DNA of 64,000 bases from Gordonibacter urolithinfaciens (GTDB lineage: Bacteria > Actinomycetota > Coriobacteriia > Coriobacteriales > Eggerthellaceae), in NCBI RefSeq assembly GCF_900199375.1, contig NZ_LT900217.1, forward strand, positions 1,054,001 through 1,118,000. Direction: 5' to 3'. This document shows, one piece after another, positions 1,694-10,945 of the stretch. The notes beneath the pieces were generated by a model, which saw only the letters and a list, made by a program, of their open reading frames with translations, was not told the origin of the DNA and made no database searches. Both the position numbers and the translations under genes were made by a program. The stretch's first letter is position 1. The number at the start of each line of letters is the position of its first letter.

Positions 1694-1707
1694 ATAACAT
1701 ATGTTAT
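1694..1707. promoter_or_regulatory. Palindromic operator between tetR-type gene and hdcA
   Basis: ATAACATATGTTAT is a perfect 14-bp palindrome 17 bases upstream of the TetR start. Its size, symmetry and place suit a TetR-dimer operator. It overlaps a TATAAC-like -10 on the minus strand. Binding by the neighbouring regulator is inferred. Confidence 0.6.
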
Positions 1708-1936
1708 ATGACAGTTGTAATATATCACCCCCGCGCCCGCCGGTCAAGGGAAGAGGCGGGGCAGGACGCCCATCGGGGGGAACGGGGCCCCTTTGGAAAC
1801 GCCCTCGTTTCACCTCCCCAACGATCCGCCATCGGGAAAGGCACGGCTCCCTTTCGGAACCGTTATGCGAAATCAAACGCGAGTCTCGGGCCCTACAATC
1901 GGCGCTGAATCGAACACCTGCGAAAGGAGACCTGTT

Positions 1937-2893
1937 TTGAAGAACATCGAGGAACGCCGCAACCGCACCATCGCCCGCGAGGCGAACTACCACGCGAGCA
2001 TGCGTGCGCCGCACATCGACAAGACGGCCATCAGCCCTTATGACGATTACTGCGACGGTTACGGCATGCCGGGCGCCTACGGCAACGGCTACGTGTCCGT
2101 GCTGAAGGTGTCGGCCGGCACGGTGGAGAAGACCAACGACGCGCTCATCGACACCATCGTCACCTACGACAAGGCGGAGACGGCCGATGCCTACATCGGC
2201 CAGATCAACATGCTCACGGCTTCCTCGTTCTGCGGCATGGCCGGCCAGGTGTGGGGCTACGACCTGGCCCGTCACGACGACATCACGTCGGGCAAGAGCC
2301 AGCCGCTGTTCACCGAGAAGCAGTTCGACGGCTCCGAGCTCAAGGTGTTCGACGCCGCCCCGCTGCTGAACGCCGGCGTCGAGCTGTTCGGCACCGAGAA
2401 CAACCGCCGCTACCATCCCATCCCCGGCGCGCACACCATCTGCGCCAACAAGGGCGTCACCGCCTACCGCCCGAAGGAGGACCGCCCGCTCAAGGCCGGC
2501 GAGGCCTACGGCATCTGGTCGTTCATCGCCATCTCGCTGTCCGCCGACCGCGACTTCTCTGCCGACCTGTTCATCGAGGACGCCGGCGTATGGACCGAAA
2601 ACGACAACGAGGACGACATGATGGCCTTCCTCGAGCAGCACCGCAAGGAGATCGTCTGGTCCGTGGTGGAGTGCGGCCGCGACTCCAACGTGCTGTTCGA
2701 CCGCACGTACGTGGGCTTCGCGCACCGCATGATGAAGCCGGGCGAGATCGGCAACGCCATCACCGTGGGCCCCTACGTCACGCTGGCCCGCAACGCCGTG
2801 CCCACCACGGGATTCACGTCGCTGAACGACCTCAACCTCTCCGACTGGCTGAAGGAAATGGACTTCGAGTCGCTCACGAACCTCGCGAAGTAG
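1937..2893 (+). CDS. hdcA: Histidine decarboxylase, pyruvoyl type
   Basis: Converts histidine to histamine and CO2 with a pyruvoyl cofactor made by self-cleavage. From the TTG at 1937 (AAGGAG at 1924-1929) the protein has 318 residues, the normal proenzyme length. Recognisable family blocks are CDGYGMPGAYGNGYVSVLKVS (~residues 40-60), the cleavage site TASSFCG with Ser96-Ser97, and the C-terminal run MKPGEIGNAITVGPYVTLAR. Cleavage between the two serines gives a beta chain of ~96 residues and an alpha chain starting with pyruvate. An APC antiporter follows on the same strand and a TetR regulator is divergent. A possible -10 TACAAT sits at 1894-1899. In bacteria this pair exports histamine and generates proton motive force and acid resistance. 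No hdcB or histidyl-tRNA synthetase is adjacent. An ATG reading from 1793 lacks a ribosome site. Confidence 0.95.
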   Translation: MKNIEERRNRTIAREANYHASMRAPHIDKTAISPYDDYCDGYGMPGAYGNGYVSVLKVSAGTVEKTNDALIDTIVTYDKAETADAYIGQINMLTASSFCGMAGQVWGYDLARHDDITSGKSQPLFTEKQFDGSELKVFDAAPLLNAGVELFGTENNRRYHPIPGAHTICANKGVTAYRPKEDRPLKAGEAYGIWSFIAISLSADRDFSADLFIEDAGVWTENDNEDDMMAFLEQHRKEIVWSVVECGRDSNVLFDRTYVGFAHRMMKPGEIGNAITVGPYVTLARNAVPTTGFTSLNDLNLSDWLKEMDFESLTNLAK

Positions 2894-2955
2894 CGCGGAG
2901 CTCCCCTATCGCATGACGGCGGGCGCCCGTTGCCCCCGCCGCAACGAAGATCGCC

Positions 2956-2981
2956 GCGCGCCCGCCTCCCAGCGGGCGCGC
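2956..2981 (+). other. Intercistronic hairpin between hdcA and antiporter
   Basis: A perfect 10-bp stem (2956-2965 with 2972-2981) and 6-base loop lie in the 111-base gap between the two genes. No T-run follows, so it is more likely an mRNA stabiliser or partial attenuator that sets the decarboxylase-to-transporter ratio than a full terminator. That role is inferred. Confidence 0.5.
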
Positions 2982-3004
2982 CTCTCATGACAAGGACTGG
3001 AATC

Positions 3005-4510
3005 ATGGCAGACAATACCTCGACCGGTTCCAGCGGAAGCGCCGCCAAGGCATCCGACAGCTCGAAGAAGGTAGGGCTGATCGGCCTCGTCGGCATCGTC
3101 ATCAGCGCCATGATCGGCGGAGGCATCTACAACCTCCCCCAGAACATGGCCGCGGACGCCTCCGCTGGAGCCATCATCATCGCCTGGGTGGTCACGGGCA
3201 TCGGCATCTGGTTCATCGCGAACACGTTCCGCATCCTCTCGGCCGCGCGCCCGGAGCTCACGAACGGCCTGTACACGTACGCCGAGAAGGGCTTCGGCAA
3301 GCTCATCGGCTTCTTCGTGGCCTACGGCTACTGGATCTGCAACTGTTTCGCCCTCGTGGCGTACTCGGTGCTGGTCATGGCCACGCTCGACTACTTCGTG
3401 CCCGACTTCTCGGGCGGCAACAACATCCCGTCCATCATCGGCGGCTCCATCATCACGTGGATCATGTACCTGCTGGCCCTGCAGGGCGCGAAGTCCACGA
3501 GCTTCCTGAACATCATCGGCACCATCGGCAAGCTGCTGCCCGTGGCCATCTTCATCATCGCGGTGGCCACCGTGTTCAAGTTCTCGGTGTTCATGGAGGG
3601 CTTCTGGGGCATGAAGGGCACCATCGACCTGACGTTCAGCTGGGACAACGTCATGCCGCAGGTGCAGGCCACGATGCTCGTCACACTGTGGCTGTTCTTG
3701 GGCATCGAGGGCGCCGTCGTGGTGTCGGGCAAGGCGAAGTCGCAGGCCGCCGTGCGCAAGGCCACGACCATCGGCTTTCTGGTCACGCTCGCGCTCTACA
3801 TCATCGTGTCGCTGCTGCCGCTCGGCGTGTACTCGCAGGCCGACGTCGGCGCCATGGCCGACCCTTCCATGGCCGCCATCATGTTGGACAAGTTCGGGAA
3901 ATGGGGCGAGATCCTGGTGAACGCCGGCGTCATCGTGTCGGTGCTGAGCTCCTGGCTCGTGTGGATGCTCATGCTGGGCGAGATGCCGCTGGCCGCCTCG
4001 AAGAGCGGCATCTTCCCCAAGGCGTTCGTGAAGGAGAACAAGAAGGGCTCGCCGTCCACCGCGCTGCTGTGGACCACCATCATCGTGCAGATCGTGCTCG
4101 TTATCTCGTTCTTCATCGGCAGCAACGCCTGGACCACCATGATCAGCATCACCAGCGTCATGGCGCTGCCGTGCTACCTGTTCTGCACGCTCTTCCTTTT
4201 CAAGATCGCCATCAAGAAAGAATACCCGGAGGGCATCTTCGCCAGCCGGAACATGGCGGTGTTCACCGGCGCGGCCGGCTCGCTCTACGGCCTGTGGCTC
4301 ATCTACGCCGCCGGGCTGAACTACCTCATGGTGGCGTGCATCGTGTACGCCGTCGGCCTGCCGCTCTACATCGTGGGCGTGCGCCAGCACGACCCCAAGG
4401 CGAAGCTGTTCGCCAAGACCTCGGACAAGGTCATCGTGGCCGTGGTGGTGGCGCTGGGCATAGCCGGGCTCGTCTACTCCATCGTCACGTTCGGGCACGT
4501 CAAGCTCTAG
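3005..4510 (+). CDS. APC-family amino acid antiporter, probable histidine/histamine exchanger
   Basis: 501 residues from the ATG at 3005, with about 12 hydrophobic segments. The start of TM1 carries the APC signature GIVISAMIGGGIYNLP, as in arginine/ornithine and other amino acid/amine exchangers. A later segment, EMPLAASKSGIFPKAFVKENKKGSP, is typical of the ArcD/LysP-like APA group. The position directly after histidine decarboxylase supports electrogenic exchange of histidine for histamine, as in HdcP/HdcC of lactobacilli; specificity is inferred from context only. Its last 11 bases overlap the end of the convergent radical SAM gene. Confidence 0.88.
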   Translation: MADNTSTGSSGSAAKASDSSKKVGLIGLVGIVISAMIGGGIYNLPQNMAADASAGAIIIAWVVTGIGIWFIANTFRILSAARPELTNGLYTYAEKGFGKLIGFFVAYGYWICNCFALVAYSVLVMATLDYFVPDFSGGNNIPSIIGGSIITWIMYLLALQGAKSTSFLNIIGTIGKLLPVAIFIIAVATVFKFSVFMEGFWGMKGTIDLTFSWDNVMPQVQATMLVTLWLFLGIEGAVVVSGKAKSQAAVRKATTIGFLVTLALYIIVSLLPLGVYSQADVGAMADPSMAAIMLDKFGKWGEILVNAGVIVSVLSSWLVWMLMLGEMPLAASKSGIFPKAFVKENKKGSPSTALLWTTIIVQIVLVISFFIGSNAWTTMISITSVMALPCYLFCTLFLFKIAIKKEYPEGIFASRNMAVFTGAAGSLYGLWLIYAAGLNYLMVACIVYAVGLPLYIVGVRQHDPKAKLFAKTSDKVIVAVVVALGIAGLVYSIVTFGHVKL

Positions 4511-5810
4511 GCTCGACGGCCACCTCCCGCAGGTAGAGGGCGGGGCGCGCGCCGGCGCGTCCCGCCCTGGGCGCGCCGTCCGGCTCGCGCTCCTCCACCA
4601 CGTTCACGCTCTCGGCCAGGACGATGGACGGGCAGGCCTCCTCCAGCGCCGCGGCGTCGTCGTCCGCAAGCGCAAGGCTCGGCACGTCCGGGTCGTAGCC
4701 GCAAACCACGCCGGCGCCCTCGGCCCATTCCCTCGCCCAGCGCGCATCCTCCCCGAAGGCCTTCGCGCACTTCAGGAACCGGTCTTCCTCGTCCGCACGC
4801 ATCCACGGGTGCGCGTCCCGCAGCGCCGGGTCCGCGAAGAACGCCTTGTTCTGCTGGTATATCTGGCCGGTGTTCTTGTTGTCCGAGCTGCAGTAGTGGA
4901 TTCCCAGCCGCAGGCCCTCGCGCTCGGCGAACGCCAGCAGCTCCAAGGCCTCGGCCTCGCTGCCGGCCACCGGCACCCCGCCGCCGTACCAGTAGTTGTA
5001 GAGATACTTGAAGGGATGCTTGCGCAGCTGGAAGCCGCGTTTCGCGAACTCTGCGGCGTTGTGCAGCGGAAAGCAGAACTCCAGCAGGTTGACCCCGCTG
5101 ATGCCGAGGGCGTCCGACCGCACCAGCAGGTCCTTCATCTGATCGAGCGAGCCCGGTATCACGGGCACCTCCACCACCACGGCCGGAATCGTGCCCACCG
5201 CCTGCTCCATGAGCTCGTACACGCGGTCCTGGCCGTCGCCCGCGTCGGGCGGCTTGATGCTGAAGCGGATCTCGTCCAGGCCGCTTTCGGCAAGCTCCTG
5301 CAGGCTGCGCTCGTCAAGCAGGTCGCCGCACGTGTACAGGCGCGTGTGGGCGTCCGGGTAGAGCTGGGCGGCTCGCTGAAGGAAGGCGTTCACCTGCTCG
5401 GGGTGCAGCAGCGGCTCGCCGCCCGTGATGGCCAGGCAGCGGAACCGCGCGCCCATGGCATGCGCCTGCTCGAGCTCCGCCACGATGTCGCGCTCATGGG
5501 AGAGGAAGTGCTCGTAGTGGTCCTGGTTCGGGTTGAAGCAGAAATAGCACTTCTTCACGCACCGCAAATCGACGAAGAACGTGGCCGTCTCGTCGCCGGT
5601 GCGGCAGGCCAGGCACGCGGGCGATATCCAGTTGCGCCACAGCGACGAGGCGCCGTTCTCGCAGCGGCACCCGCACGATGCCGCCGTGCGCACGCGCGCC
5701 TCGCGCGGGGAGGTCTCCTCGCGCTCGAACGCCAGGCCGTACTCCTCCACCGCAGCCTCGAAGTCGCGCTCCGCCTCGTCGAACGCCTGCCTGTAGCCCT
5801 GAAGATCCAC
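4500..5810 (-). CDS. Radical SAM protein with extra N-terminal cysteines
   Basis: 436 residues from a GTG at 5808-5810 (GGAGGG four bases before). The radical SAM cluster motif is CVKKCYFCF (~residues 84-92), followed by the SAM-binding ITGGEPLLHP. Before it is a second cysteine group, CGCRC (~46-50) and CLAC (~64-67), possibly another metal site. The TIM-barrel part continues to ~residue 300, with HYCSSDNKN near 310. It is the last gene of the oxidoreductase operon, 60 bases after the TorD-like gene. A role in maturing the molybdoenzyme or in modifying a small molecule is inferred. Its reaction cannot be named. Confidence 0.85.
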   Translation of the reverse strand: MDLQGYRQAFDEAERDFEAAVEEYGLAFEREETSPREARVRTAASCGCRCENGASSLWRNWISPACLACRTGDETATFFVDLRCVKKCYFCFNPNQDHYEHFLSHERDIVAELEQAHAMGARFRCLAITGGEPLLHPEQVNAFLQRAAQLYPDAHTRLYTCGDLLDERSLQELAESGLDEIRFSIKPPDAGDGQDRVYELMEQAVGTIPAVVVEVPVIPGSLDQMKDLLVRSDALGISGVNLLEFCFPLHNAAEFAKRGFQLRKHPFKYLYNYWYGGGVPVAGSEAEALELLAFAEREGLRLGIHYCSSDNKNTGQIYQQNKAFFADPALRDAHPWMRADEEDRFLKCAKAFGEDARWAREWAEGAGVVCGYDPDVPSLALADDDAAALEEACPSIVLAESVNVVEEREPDGAPRAGRAGARPALYLREVAVEPRA

Positions 5811-5870
5811 GGTACCCTCCTGTAGAAACGTCGGCCCTGCTGCGCGGGCGGCCGACTCTATCGGCCCCGC

Positions 5871-6644
5871 CTACTCCGGCTCGGCCAGCTCTGCCTCGAC
5901 CTGCTCGGACAGCACGCGGTCGAGCGTGGCGAACGCCGCCATGCCGCCCGCGAGTGCACCATAGCACCCCTGCGCATCGTGCTCGATGACCTTGGCTGCG
6001 AATTGGTCGACCCAGTTCAGCAGGTGCCGGTCGACGAACTGCCGCTGCGTCGCGAGCGTCCGGGCCGCCTCGTCGTCGCGGCCGTCGGCGAACGCCTCGT
6101 ACGCACGCTGGCTCAAAGCGCCCAGGTAGTCCATCATAGCAGCGATGTGGTCGTCGGGGAATCGCTTCTCCGCTCGCAGCTTGAACCCTGCCGCATGGTA
6201 GAACGACCGGACGTCGAGCGTGCTCTCCTGGAACACCACGGACTCCTTGCCCGTGTACGGCGATTCCCAGGGATGCACGTAATGCTCGCCGGGCACCTGG
6301 AACAGCCGGTCGTAGGAGGCGCGCAGGCGCGCGGCAAGGGCCTCGGCGCGCTCCGGGTCGCCCGCTTCGCCCTGCGCCCGCTCGGCCCAGGCACGGGCGT
6401 CTTCGGCGCAGGCGGCAAGGCTGCGCCCGGACGGGCCGAGCGTCCGGCCCGCCAGATCGGCGAAGCCGTCCCGGGCCAGCGCCTCGCCCACAGAGCCGAG
6501 CAGGGCCGGCGTCTCGCCGCCGAGCACCTTCGCGACGCCCTCGCCGGTCGGGCGGCTTCCGAACACCACATGGAACAGGCGGTACAGGTACGTGCGACGG
6601 GCCAGCCCCATCGCTAGCGCGCTCTCGCGCTCCTCGTTCGGCAT
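5871..6644 (-). CDS. TorD/DmsD-family molybdoenzyme chaperone
   Basis: 257 all-helical residues from the ATG at 6642-6644, with GGGAGA upstream. Features typical of the TorD/DmsD/NarJ family are the N-terminal RRTYLYRLFHVVFGSRP segment and the middle motif YDRLFQVPG...HVHPWESPYTG-like (here EHYVHPWESPYTGKESVVFQ). Such chaperones bind the Tat leader of the catalytic subunit, holding it back until the molybdopterin cofactor is inserted. The client is almost certainly the product of 7359-9971, which has a twin-arginine leader and lies two genes upstream. Confidence 0.88.
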   Translation of the reverse strand: MPNEERESALAMGLARRTYLYRLFHVVFGSRPTGEGVAKVLGGETPALLGSVGEALARDGFADLAGRTLGPSGRSLAACAEDARAWAERAQGEAGDPERAEALAARLRASYDRLFQVPGEHYVHPWESPYTGKESVVFQESTLDVRSFYHAAGFKLRAEKRFPDDHIAAMMDYLGALSQRAYEAFADGRDDEAARTLATQRQFVDRHLLNWVDQFAAKVIEHDAQGCYGALAGGMAAFATLDRVLSEQVEAELAEPE

Positions 6645-6755
6645 AGCGGTCTCCCGTCTCTCGTGGCAGCCCGCGGGCAGGTTGGCGGGTGCTCCGGCAA
6701 ACATGGTTGCCGCGCCGCAGGGAGGGATCTGCGACGCGGCAAGAAAGGGGGTAGG

Positions 6756-7334
6756 TTACCAGGTAAGCTCCCGGTATCCTGCATCTTGGGCGCAGTCCTT
6801 CGCCTTGATGAGGATGTTCGGGTGCGTCTCGTCCGGGGACGGCAGCACGGCGATGCTGCCCTCGTTCAAGTCGGGGCCGAACTCGGCGCGCAGCTCGTCC
6901 ATCTCGCCGAACTTGAGCGCGCGGTTGGGGCATCCCGCCACGCACGCCGGCTCGCCGCCGGCCTCGCGCAGGCCGTAGCAGCCGTCGCACTTACCGGACA
7001 CGCCCTCGTCCGGGAAGTACTTCGGCTGGCCGTACGGGCACGACATGACGCACATGCGGCACCCGATGCACTTGCTCTGGTCCTGCACGACCGTCCCGTC
7101 GGGCGCCCGGTAGATGGCCCCCGTCGGGCAGTTCTTCAAGCAGATAGGCTCCTCGCAATGGTTGCAGCCGAACGAGTAGCTGTACGCCTTCGACTTCGGG
7201 AACTCCCCAACAGAATACGTATGCGCTTCCCGATACAGCAATCCCACTTCCAGGCGATTCTTATCCTTGCACGCAACCTGGCACGCACGGCAACCCGTGC
7301 AGCGGTTCTGATCCAAATAGAATCCAACGCTCAT
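6756..7334 (-). CDS. DmsB-like FeS electron-transfer subunit
   Basis: 192 residues with four cysteine clusters in the DmsB/NrfC/PhsB order: CTGCRACQVACK (~12-23), CNHCEEPICLKNCP (~57-70), CIGCRMCVMSCP (~89-100) and CDGCYG...CVAGCP. They should hold four [4Fe-4S] clusters linking a membrane anchor to the molybdenum subunit. The ATG at 7332-7334 has a strong AAGGAGG. It lies 24 bases after the catalytic gene in the same operon. There is no signal peptide of its own, so it is expected to be carried across with the catalytic subunit. Confidence 0.93.
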   Translation of the reverse strand: MSVGFYLDQNRCTGCRACQVACKDKNRLEVGLLYREAHTYSVGEFPKSKAYSYSFGCNHCEEPICLKNCPTGAIYRAPDGTVVQDQSKCIGCRMCVMSCPYGQPKYFPDEGVSGKCDGCYGLREAGGEPACVAGCPNRALKFGEMDELRAEFGPDLNEGSIAVLPSPDETHPNILIKAKDCAQDAGYRELTW

Positions 7335-7358
7335 GATCCAACCTCCTTATCCGCAGCC

Positions 7359-9971
7359 CTAGTTCTTGCTCCAACGAGGCGGCAGTTCGCAATCGGGTAC
7401 CAGCTGCTCTTCGTCGTACTTCTCGATGTTGCATATCTGGTTGTTGTAGCCCGACACGCCCATGCCACCGTACTCAGCACCGATCAGGTAGTTATCCGAA
7501 CCGGCACGATCAATTCCCGTTTCCTCGTCGACATCGACCCATGCACCGTGCGGCACACCGACGATTCCCGGCATAAGGATGTCCATTACCGCCGCTTTGC
7601 GCAAGCCTTTCCCGGCGGGGGTGCTGATGAGAACCGTGTCCCCTTCCTCGATACCCTTCTCTTCCGCATCCTGGCGGCTAAGGAACACCGGGTTCGGCCA
7701 CGCCTCGCGCAGCCAAGGGCAGTTGTCGAACACGGTATGGGAGCGGCGCAGATAGTGAGGGTTGTACATAAGGTAAGGATACTCGCCCTTCTCGCCGCCC
7801 ACCTTCTCGTCCTTGAACGTGGATTCGTACCCAACGCACGGAACGACGTATGTGGGGTACGGCTTAAACTGCTCGATGCCATCGTATTCGAACGACGCCA
7901 TAAGGTCGTATCGAGCCTGGCAGTAGATCTCGAGCTTACCGCTCGCGCTCGAGAGCGGATTGGCAACTGGATCGGTTACGAAATCCTCGTAGCCGATAAA
8001 GCCGTGCCCATCATCGGGCTTGCGCTCGAACTGGTACCCGCCGTTCTCGATGAAATCAGCAAGCGAGATCACGCCTTTCTGGGGTGTTCCGTTCACCCCC
8101 CATTCCGAGATATCGGAATCGGTGATGGTAACGAGGGGGCCCATCTTGCCGTTGTCGCCCATTACCTTGCAACCGGAAATCTGCTCGAAGAACTGCTGCT
8201 TTTCCGAGGTATCGTAGGCAAGCGTCGGATCCATTCCCATGCCCTCGAGCAGCAGCGTGCCGATCTCCTGGTCGGTCTTCGCCTCACCGAGCGGTTCGGT
8301 CACCTGCGAGTAGCAGTACACGAACTCGCGGTTGCACGATGTCACCGAACCGACGCGCTCCCACTCGGTCGTGACGGGCAGGACGATGTCCGAGAAGAGG
8401 GCGTTCGTCGTCATGAACTGGGCGCGCGTAAGCACGAAGTCCACGGCGCGATGGGCCTCGATACCCGCCTTCTGGTGCAGCGAAGTCTGCAGCGTTGCAT
8501 CGGTCACATGGAAGATGCCCTTGATGGGACCGAGTGTCGTCGGAATAGGCTCGTGAAAGCTCCCGTAAGAATTCGACACGTCGTAGAAGGACCCGCCGCC
8601 GTTGAGGATGATGTCGTAGAGCTGCGGTTGGCGCACGCCCGTCGAGCAGGGATTCTTCGTTTTGGGGGTCTTGGCTTTCCCTGCGGTCACCAGGTTGGGC
8701 CCGTAGTTGCCCGCGTTGGCATGGTAGTTGCCGCCGCAGGCATGCCCCGACTTGCCCATATGGCCGCCCATTGCACCCAGCGTCATGAGCATCTGGGGGA
8801 TCATCTCGGACCCGTTGCAGCGCACCATTCCGTAGTTGTGCAAAAGCATGGTCTTGTTGTTTTTGCCCAAGATGCGCGCGAACTCCGTTACCTGCTCGGG
8901 CGGAACACCGCAGAAGGGCTCGGCCCACTCGGGTGTTTTCGGAACCCCGTCGTAGACGCCCAGCAGGTAGTCCATAAGATTCTCGTTGAGCTTTGCATCC
9001 GCAGGCATGCTCTCTGCGTCAAAGCCCACCGTGTACTTGTGGATGAAATCCCAGTCGACGATATCGCCTTCTTCTTTGTCGAGGCGCAGCATCTCGTAAG
9101 CCACGGCAAGCATGAAGGACATATCGGTGCCGTTTCGCACCGGAACCCAGTCGGCGTCGAGCGTCTGCGCCGTTGCATTGTACAGCGGGTCGACGGTCAC
9201 GAACTTTACGCCCGCCTCCTTGGCCTGGATGAAGTAATACGTCGGCGTACCGGCTGCCGACCACGTGGGATTCGACGAGTAAAGGATGATGTAGTCGGCA
9301 TTTTTCAGATCGAAGCGGTCGTTCGCCTTGCCGCAATCGGTCGGCGGAAGGCCGATCATGTCGCATCCCAGCGTGTAGGTTCCGTGCGAAGTGGTATCCC
9401 ATCCGCGCACGCAGCCGCACATGACGTTGATGCTGGCATCCGGAGACTTGCAGTAAAAGCCAGTCGGGCCGTACTCGTCGCTGATCCGCTTGATCTCCTG
9501 GCATGCCAGGTCGATGGCTTCGTCCCAGCTGATGCGCTCCCACTCGTCCTTACCGCGCATCTGCCCGTTCGAATTCTCTCCACCGCCCGGCTTCCAGCCC
9601 TTTCGCTTGAGCGGATAGAGAACGCGATCCGCCCCGAAGCACTGCTGTTGCTGGGCCTTGCCGCGCACGCAGCCGCGCTGCTGCGGGTAGTCCGGCGAGT
9701 CCTCGTGCGTGTCGTCGGTCTTCTGGCGCACGACGGCGCCATCCTTGACCATGACCTTGTTCATGCAGCGCCCGCCGCAGTTGTGCCAGCACGCGGCCGC
9801 CACCCACTCGCCGCCTTCAGCCGGGTCGACGGGCAGCTCGTGCTTGTCGGCGGCGTCGAGGCTCGCCTCCGCGGAGCAGCCCGTGGCCGACAGCAGGGCA
9901 GCGCTCGCCGCCACCGCCGCCGAGGCCCCCAGAAAGCCGCGACGAGAAATGTTCTTGGATTGAATGCTCAC
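7359..9971 (-). CDS. Molybdopterin oxidoreductase, DMSO reductase family, catalytic subunit
   Basis: 870 residues from a GTG at 9969-9971 (AAGGGGG upstream). The N-terminus has a twin-arginine leader, SRRGFLGASAAVAASAALL, followed by SATGC, so it may be a Tat-exported lipoprotein. Residues ~59-105 carry the FeS motif CWHNCGGRC...RGCVRGK. The rest shows MopB cofactor domains (ERISWDEAIDLACQEI; YIILYSSNPTWSAAGTP) and the C-terminal dinucleotide-binding domain (NPHYLRRSHTVFDNCPWLREAWPNPVFLSRQDAEEKGI). It is probably the terminal reductase of an anaerobic chain. The substrate could be an S- or N-oxide or a plant or host catechol, as for related Eggerthella enzymes; sequence alone does not decide. 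It lies between the anchor and FeS genes. Confidence 0.93.
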   Translation of the reverse strand: MSIQSKNISRRGFLGASAAVAASAALLSATGCSAEASLDAADKHELPVDPAEGGEWVAAACWHNCGGRCMNKVMVKDGAVVRQKTDDTHEDSPDYPQQRGCVRGKAQQQQCFGADRVLYPLKRKGWKPGGGENSNGQMRGKDEWERISWDEAIDLACQEIKRISDEYGPTGFYCKSPDASINVMCGCVRGWDTTSHGTYTLGCDMIGLPPTDCGKANDRFDLKNADYIILYSSNPTWSAAGTPTYYFIQAKEAGVKFVTVDPLYNATAQTLDADWVPVRNGTDMSFMLAVAYEMLRLDKEEGDIVDWDFIHKYTVGFDAESMPADAKLNENLMDYLLGVYDGVPKTPEWAEPFCGVPPEQVTEFARILGKNNKTMLLHNYGMVRCNGSEMIPQMLMTLGAMGGHMGKSGHACGGNYHANAGNYGPNLVTAGKAKTPKTKNPCSTGVRQPQLYDIILNGGGSFYDVSNSYGSFHEPIPTTLGPIKGIFHVTDATLQTSLHQKAGIEAHRAVDFVLTRAQFMTTNALFSDIVLPVTTEWERVGSVTSCNREFVYCYSQVTEPLGEAKTDQEIGTLLLEGMGMDPTLAYDTSEKQQFFEQISGCKVMGDNGKMGPLVTITDSDISEWGVNGTPQKGVISLADFIENGGYQFERKPDDGHGFIGYEDFVTDPVANPLSSASGKLEIYCQARYDLMASFEYDGIEQFKPYPTYVVPCVGYESTFKDEKVGGEKGEYPYLMYNPHYLRRSHTVFDNCPWLREAWPNPVFLSRQDAEEKGIEEGDTVLISTPAGKGLRKAAVMDILMPGIVGVPHGAWVDVDEETGIDRAGSDNYLIGAEYGGMGVSGYNNQICNIEKYDEEQLVPDCELPPRWSKN

Positions 9972-9992
9972 GATGAATCCCCCTTTGCTTCC

Positions 9993-10766
9993 CTACGCCA
10001 CCGTGCAGGTTGCGTAAAACGCGTAGCGCGCGATGGCGACGCCGACGATCGAGGCGACGCAGATGGCAATCGCAAGCGCCTTCTTGTTGTTGATCTTCGA
10101 CGACAGCGCCACGAGCACGACGGAGACGACCGGTGCGATTACGAGTCCCGCGATCTGGGTGATCGGGCTGAAGCCCTCGCCCGAGAACGCGACGGCCTCC
10201 AGCACGAGGCCCACGGCCAGCACGGCGTTCACGATGTAGGCCGCCAAGCGCAACGGCTTGCCCGCGTAGTCTGCCGAGGCCAGCAGGGCGAACAGCGCCA
10301 GGCCCATGGCCAGGTCGCCCGCGACGAACGCGAGGATGGTCGCCGGCGCGTTGCACCAGACAGGGTTCCCGTAGACATCGATATAGGCAACGCCCATAAT
10401 GACCAGGCAGATCACGCCCACCACGGCGCCCACAACGCGCAGCGCGTAGGGGCTGCCCTTCCGAACCAGCGTGACCACCAGGTCGATGATCGCCAGCACG
10501 AAGAAGCACCCGGCTACGGCGACCTCCTGGATCATGCCGGACCCGAAGTTGACCGTGCCGCCGAACACCGATTCGACCGCACGCGGGATGCTGTGCACGT
10601 GCGTGGTTGCCGCAATCATGCCCACGGCGAACAGCGCCACGACGACCAGGGGAACCAGCCAGGGACGGCTGCCCTCGCGCGTGCGGCGCAGACCGGCGTC
10701 GAACGCGTACGCGCCGGCGGCCATACCCCCCAGCATAGTGAACAGATACAAAGATTCAAGCCCCAT
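9993..10766 (-). CDS. DmsC-like membrane anchor subunit
   Basis: 257 residues with about eight hydrophobic segments, from the ATG at 10764-10766 (GAGGAGG upstream). Topology and size fit the DmsC family, which anchors the catalytic and FeS subunits and oxidises menaquinol. It is the first gene of the operon, 21 bases ahead of the catalytic gene. The longer reading to 10865 has a non-membrane arginine-rich front and no ribosome site. The operator-bearing promoter lies 180 bases upstream. Confidence 0.85.
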   Translation of the reverse strand: MGLESLYLFTMLGGMAAGAYAFDAGLRRTREGSRPWLVPLVVVALFAVGMIAATTHVHSIPRAVESVFGGTVNFGSGMIQEVAVAGCFFVLAIIDLVVTLVRKGSPYALRVVGAVVGVICLVIMGVAYIDVYGNPVWCNAPATILAFVAGDLAMGLALFALLASADYAGKPLRLAAYIVNAVLAVGLVLEAVAFSGEGFSPITQIAGLVIAPVVSVVLVALSSKINNKKALAIAICVASIVGVAIARYAFYATCTVA

Positions 10767-10945
10767 ACTCAAGCCTCCTCTTCCCATACGCCTGCCCTCT
10801 GCAGGCGTCCGCTTAGCGGCGCGCGCCGCGATGGCGCACGCCTCGCCCAAGCCTCTCGGGCGCACCGCCTCCTGGGAAGGGGGCGTGGGCGCAGCGATCG
10901 CTCGGATGCGTGTTTGCAGGAAATCGGCCGATCCCTCTGTCGCCT

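Follow-up and report, generated by a model that had tools for sequence, protein, structure and literature searches.

In some lactic acid bacteria, HdcB is needed for the maturation of the histidine decarboxylase HdcA. For Actinobacteriota, Mou et al. 2021 (PMC8465708) predicted clusters in which a pyruvoyl-type hdcA adjoins an antiporter gene of the aaxC or gadC type, and called hdcB and hisS occasional. The locus described here lies in a Gordonibacter genome of 3.29 Mb contained in a single contig, and was analyzed within a 64-kb window (the whole stretch of DNA under analysis). It comprises hdcA and an antiporter gene, both with intact reading frames, next to a divergent tetR gene. These two genes very probably constitute a standard histidine decarboxylation module, passed down in the lineage of Gordonibacter, Eggerthella, Paraeggerthella, Rubneribacter and Raoultibacter, in which HdcA and the antiporter would form a cycle, hdcA would be read from its own promoter and the TetR gene would be a mere neighbor.

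HdcA retains the residues of a pyruvoyl-type histidine decarboxylase

The hdcA gene (1937-2893, + strand) encodes a 318-aa protein predicted to be a pyruvoyl-type histidine decarboxylase proenzyme of the PDB 1PYA/1IBT family. Its start was placed at a TTG codon at 1937, which is preceded by AAAGGAG and aligns with an ATG in a 99%-identical Gordonibacter relative. Against the NCBI equivalog model TIGR00541 the protein scores 490 bits over model positions 4-304 of 307, passing the curated cut-off of 346.65 bits over its full length, and its score against PF02329 is 574 bits. Alignment positions the predicted cleavage between Ser96 and Ser97, the equivalents of Ser81/Ser82 in the Lactobacillus 30a enzyme; Ser96-Ser97 and Glu214, aligned with 1HQ6, are invariant in the HdcA alignment (A1). 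Gordonibacter HdcA in fact keeps every substrate-binding and catalytic residue known from the Lactobacillus 30a enzyme, with Asp53, Ile59, Tyr62, Asp63 and Glu66 corresponding to Asp68, Ile74, Tyr77, Asp78 and Glu81, and Ser81, Ser82, Phe195, Glu197 and Asp198 to Ser96, Ser97, Phe212, Glu214 and Asp215. Glu66, Phe195 and Glu197 are numbered as in 1PYA, and the numbering of Asp53, Ile59, Tyr62, Asp63, Ser81, Ser82 and Asp198 is that given in Mou et al. 2021 (PMC8465708). The TIGR00541 score and the Ser96-Ser97 pair bear out the initial annotation, which had called a pyruvoyl HdcA with an intact Ser-Ser site. The proenzyme is assumed to cleave itself between these two serines, generating a pyruvoyl group with which it would decarboxylate histidine to histamine.

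Searches for hdcB found no copy in the source genome or in any of seven Eggerthellaceae genomes, and hisS is absent from the genes flanking hdcA; the lactic-acid-bacterial arrangement, in which both accompany hdcA, is not seen here. Neither was hdcB found on a Staphylococcus capitis plasmid with the same hdcA-antiporter order. Judged from these seven genomes and the plasmid, lacking hdcB is therefore the usual condition beyond the lactic-acid-bacterial branch. The initial annotation had singled out the missing hdcB and hisS as distinctive of this setting: both are indeed absent from the locus, but this does not make it special.

The linked antiporter diverges in step with HdcA

Following hdcA is a gene (3005-4510, + strand, start taken as the ATG at 3005) for a 501-aa APC-family basic amino acid/polyamine antiporter, as had been proposed at the outset, which on the evidence of TIGR00905, NF040512 and co-inheritance is a probable histidine/histamine exchanger in the hdcP/hdcC role. 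The protein scores 474 bits against TIGR00905 (basic amino acid/polyamine antiporter), above the cut-off of 409, and 461 bits against NF040512 (histidine-histamine antiporter), which is below the curated cut-off of 725 and leaves it outside that family as defined. Because of this lower score, its substrate is inferred from the pairing with hdcA. Two more antiporters of the same family are encoded in the genome, with 36% and 32% identity to the hdcA-linked one, and only for the latter does the histidine-histamine model outscore the arginine-ornithine model (461 versus 441 bits, as compared to 294 versus 458 and 252 versus 558). The candidate role of ArcD of the cell was rejected for the linked antiporter, since the two others score better on that model. 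Trp202, Glu208 and Trp293 of AdiC align with Trp and Glu residues of the linked antiporter.

The antiporter gene lies directly downstream of hdcA in 16 of 17 Eggerthellaceae loci, the remaining locus being at a contig end. Across 47 loci, pairwise distances of HdcA and of the linked antiporter correlate with r = 0.93, a value to which the shared descent of the hosts contributes, and none of 2000 permutations exceeded 0.22. Linkage and co-evolution with hdcA thus support a functional role for the antiporter in this context and, as the two proteins diverge in step, histidine/histamine exchange is the best reading of that role. The antiporter would bring in histidine, swapping it for histamine, so that each turn of exchange and decarboxylation would consume one cytoplasmic proton and move net positive charge outward. 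Production and export of histamine by the gene pair, predicted in the initial annotation, are therefore probable, given an intact pyruvoyl HdcA with its active-site residues, homology and a co-inherited antiporter in conserved pairing. In Bifidobacterium choloepi and two uncultured relatives (L034:1718-5023, L035:3014-6034, L039:7038-10092), hdcA is followed by antiporter genes duplicated in tandem.

Distribution and phylogeny of the gene pair

Homologs of hdcA above the cut-off were identified in 17 of 138 Eggerthellaceae genomes, representing 9 of 48 genera, and by these searches the hdcA-antiporter pair is common to Gordonibacter, Eggerthella lenta and many relatives. The same gene order, at 70-74% identity, is found in Bifidobacterium, Atopobiaceae, Clostridium tarantellae and [Eubacterium] tenue. 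A maximum-likelihood tree places Gordonibacter HdcA in a supported group, whose 11 sequences come from Gordonibacter, Eggerthella, Paraeggerthella, Rubneribacter and Raoultibacter; HdcAs of the Adlercreutzia type cluster with those of Bifidobacterium and Atopobiaceae, and lactic-acid-bacterial HdcAs form a separate long branch together with some clostridia. Characterised-type HdcAs of lactobacilli and Tetragenococcus nest in the wider group that holds Gordonibacter HdcA. The HdcA of Aeriscardovia (Bifidobacteriaceae), unlike that of Bifidobacterium, clusters with the lactobacillar enzymes (L061:647-1522, L071:3936-4811), a placement that suggests acquisition by transfer.

One hdcA-free genome of the genus Rubneribacter carries the tetR and radical SAM genes that flank the Gordonibacter pair adjoining each other across a short gap. 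This junction is an apparent empty site, compatible with either gain or loss of the pair. Several origins for the pair were considered and rejected: plasmid-borne HdcA relatives are all less than 60% identical, relatives in the viral collection are limited to two contigs (55% identity), and GC content (0.647 for hdcA and 0.630 for the antiporter versus 0.663 for the window) does not point to recent foreign DNA. Beyond the antiporter, the minus strand of the window (4500-10865) encodes the radical SAM protein, a TorD-like chaperone, a DmsB-like Fe-S subunit, a DmsA-like molybdopterin enzyme and a probable membrane anchor. The placement of a radical SAM gene alongside a DMSO-reductase-type operon appears unusual, and a relative in the genus Rubneribacter (L145) retains it.

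The probable operator tracks tetR, and hdcA keeps its own probable promoter

The TetR-family repressor gene (1120-1677, - strand; PF00440) is separated from hdcA by two adjacent palindromes (1694-1724), a 31-bp pair reading ATWACRNNYGTWATATWACRNNYGTAATATA that recurs as a motif upstream of tetR homologs in 27 genomes and is a probable TetR autoregulatory operator. The divergent TetR gene and palindrome of the initial annotation are thus both present, with the palindrome at 1694-1707 being the left half of the pair. Close TetR homologs were found in 27 of 137 genomes (13 genera), and in 21 of these 27 tetR adjoins a gene for a NapH-like membrane polyferredoxin (214-969, - strand, in Gordonibacter; weak TIGR02163 match, Fer4 domains), its usual partner; the NapH-like gene lies outside the histamine system and, from its distribution, tetR probably does so too. 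In 25 of the tetR genomes the operator motif reaches 25-27 out of 27, and in the other two 22-23, although these high scores are partly by construction, as the motif was drawn from the same upstream sequences. Elsewhere in the 64-kb window the best unrelated position scores 19, and a scan of the whole genome with up to three mismatches returned a single match. This tetR/NapH-like pair with its conserved double operator is in itself a recurrent feature of about 13 Eggerthellaceae genera.

The region just upstream of hdcA is kept regardless of an adjacent tetR. It holds a TACAAT hexamer (1894-1899, + strand), invariant in 12 aligned upstream regions with or without linked tetR and a probable -10 element of the promoter from which hdcA transcription would most likely start. 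About 45 bp upstream of it lies a GCACGGCTC box (1842-1862, + strand), conserved over genera at hdcA loci whether they carry tetR or lack it, and possibly an activator site; in each of three genomes searched, the best match to the box was the copy at hdcA.

Alternative interpretations

The position of the operator between tetR and hdcA, together with the divergent, adjacent tetR in 9 of 17 hdcA-bearing genomes, invites the reading that TetR binds at 1694-1724 to repress hdcA and the antiporter as a histamine switch; the initial annotation likewise took TetR as the regulator. Such a switch is improbable, and the distribution of operator and tetR corrects a link that is tempting but probably wrong. 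In 18 of the 27 tetR genomes, the same tetR with its operator has no hdcA adjacent, and in 16 of these the NapH-like gene lies beside tetR; only in the other nine does hdcA adjoin tetR; at ten hdcA loci without tetR no operator was found (motif score ≤18 of 27). Moreover, hdcA and its promoter are retained in two Gordonibacter species in which tetR, napH and the operator are located elsewhere, and roughly 170 bp separate the operator end from the hdcA -10 element. Since the operator follows tetR rather than hdcA, and the hdcA promoter is kept either way, TetR is most likely an autoregulator acting at its own double operator, perhaps also controlling the NapH-like ferredoxin gene, and would not regulate hdcA.

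Alternatively, the decarboxylase might use an amino acid other than histidine, which the antiporter would then exchange (e.g. arginine/agmatine or ornithine), and the nearly equal arginine-ornithine and histidine-histamine scores of the antiporter could be taken in this sense. That every histidine-site residue is present, and that the enzymes nested inside the wider HdcA group are of characterised type, makes this very unlikely indeed. Somewhat less remote, if still doubtful, is an intact hdc locus that is silent or varies among strains and gives rise to no appreciable histamine in the gut: hdcA is absent from one of five genomes of the genus, and the adjoining tetR and radical SAM genes of the Rubneribacter-genus genome fit such variability, but across genera the reading frames are kept, as are the ribosome-binding site and the promoter. 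A histamine-producing module remains the preferred reading; by analogy with other species it may confer acid resistance and an energy gain and affect the host. Both Eggerthella lenta and Gordonibacter are anaerobes common in the human gut, Gordonibacter and Eggerthella metabolise polyphenols and catecholamines, and luminal histamine acts on gut nerves and immunity. If the pair is active, Gordonibacter and Eggerthella lenta would raise luminal histamine. A literature search found no report of histamine measured in Gordonibacter or Eggerthella, and it is only tentatively that we suggest both as overlooked gut histamine exporters, driven by a GCACGGCTC promoter box that would answer some signal.

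Comparison with known histidine decarboxylation systems

Gordonibacter HdcA shares fold family, Ser-Ser site and substrate-binding and catalytic residues with the Lactobacillus 30a enzyme (PDB 1PYA, 1HQ6, 1IBT), from which it differs in being extended by some 15 residues at the N-terminus; it shares about half of its residues with lactobacillar relatives (50% identity to the L. reuteri enzyme). The hdcC-hdcA-hdcB-hisS cluster of Limosilactobacillus reuteri and Tetragenococcus provides the same enzyme and antiporter roles, but has the antiporter upstream, includes hdcB and hisS, and encodes an HdcA of the separate long branch. On the S. capitis plasmid (NZ_CP102088), hdcA is likewise followed directly by an APC antiporter; the plasmid lacks hdcB, and its annotated stretch lacks hisS. 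This cluster is plasmid-borne, and its HdcA and antiporter are 49% and 44% identical to those of Gordonibacter. The clusters predicted by Mou et al. 2021 (PMC8465708), whose main text does not name Eggerthellaceae, match the Gordonibacter pair in phylum, enzyme type and arrangement, and the pair is of a kind already described in Actinobacteriota.
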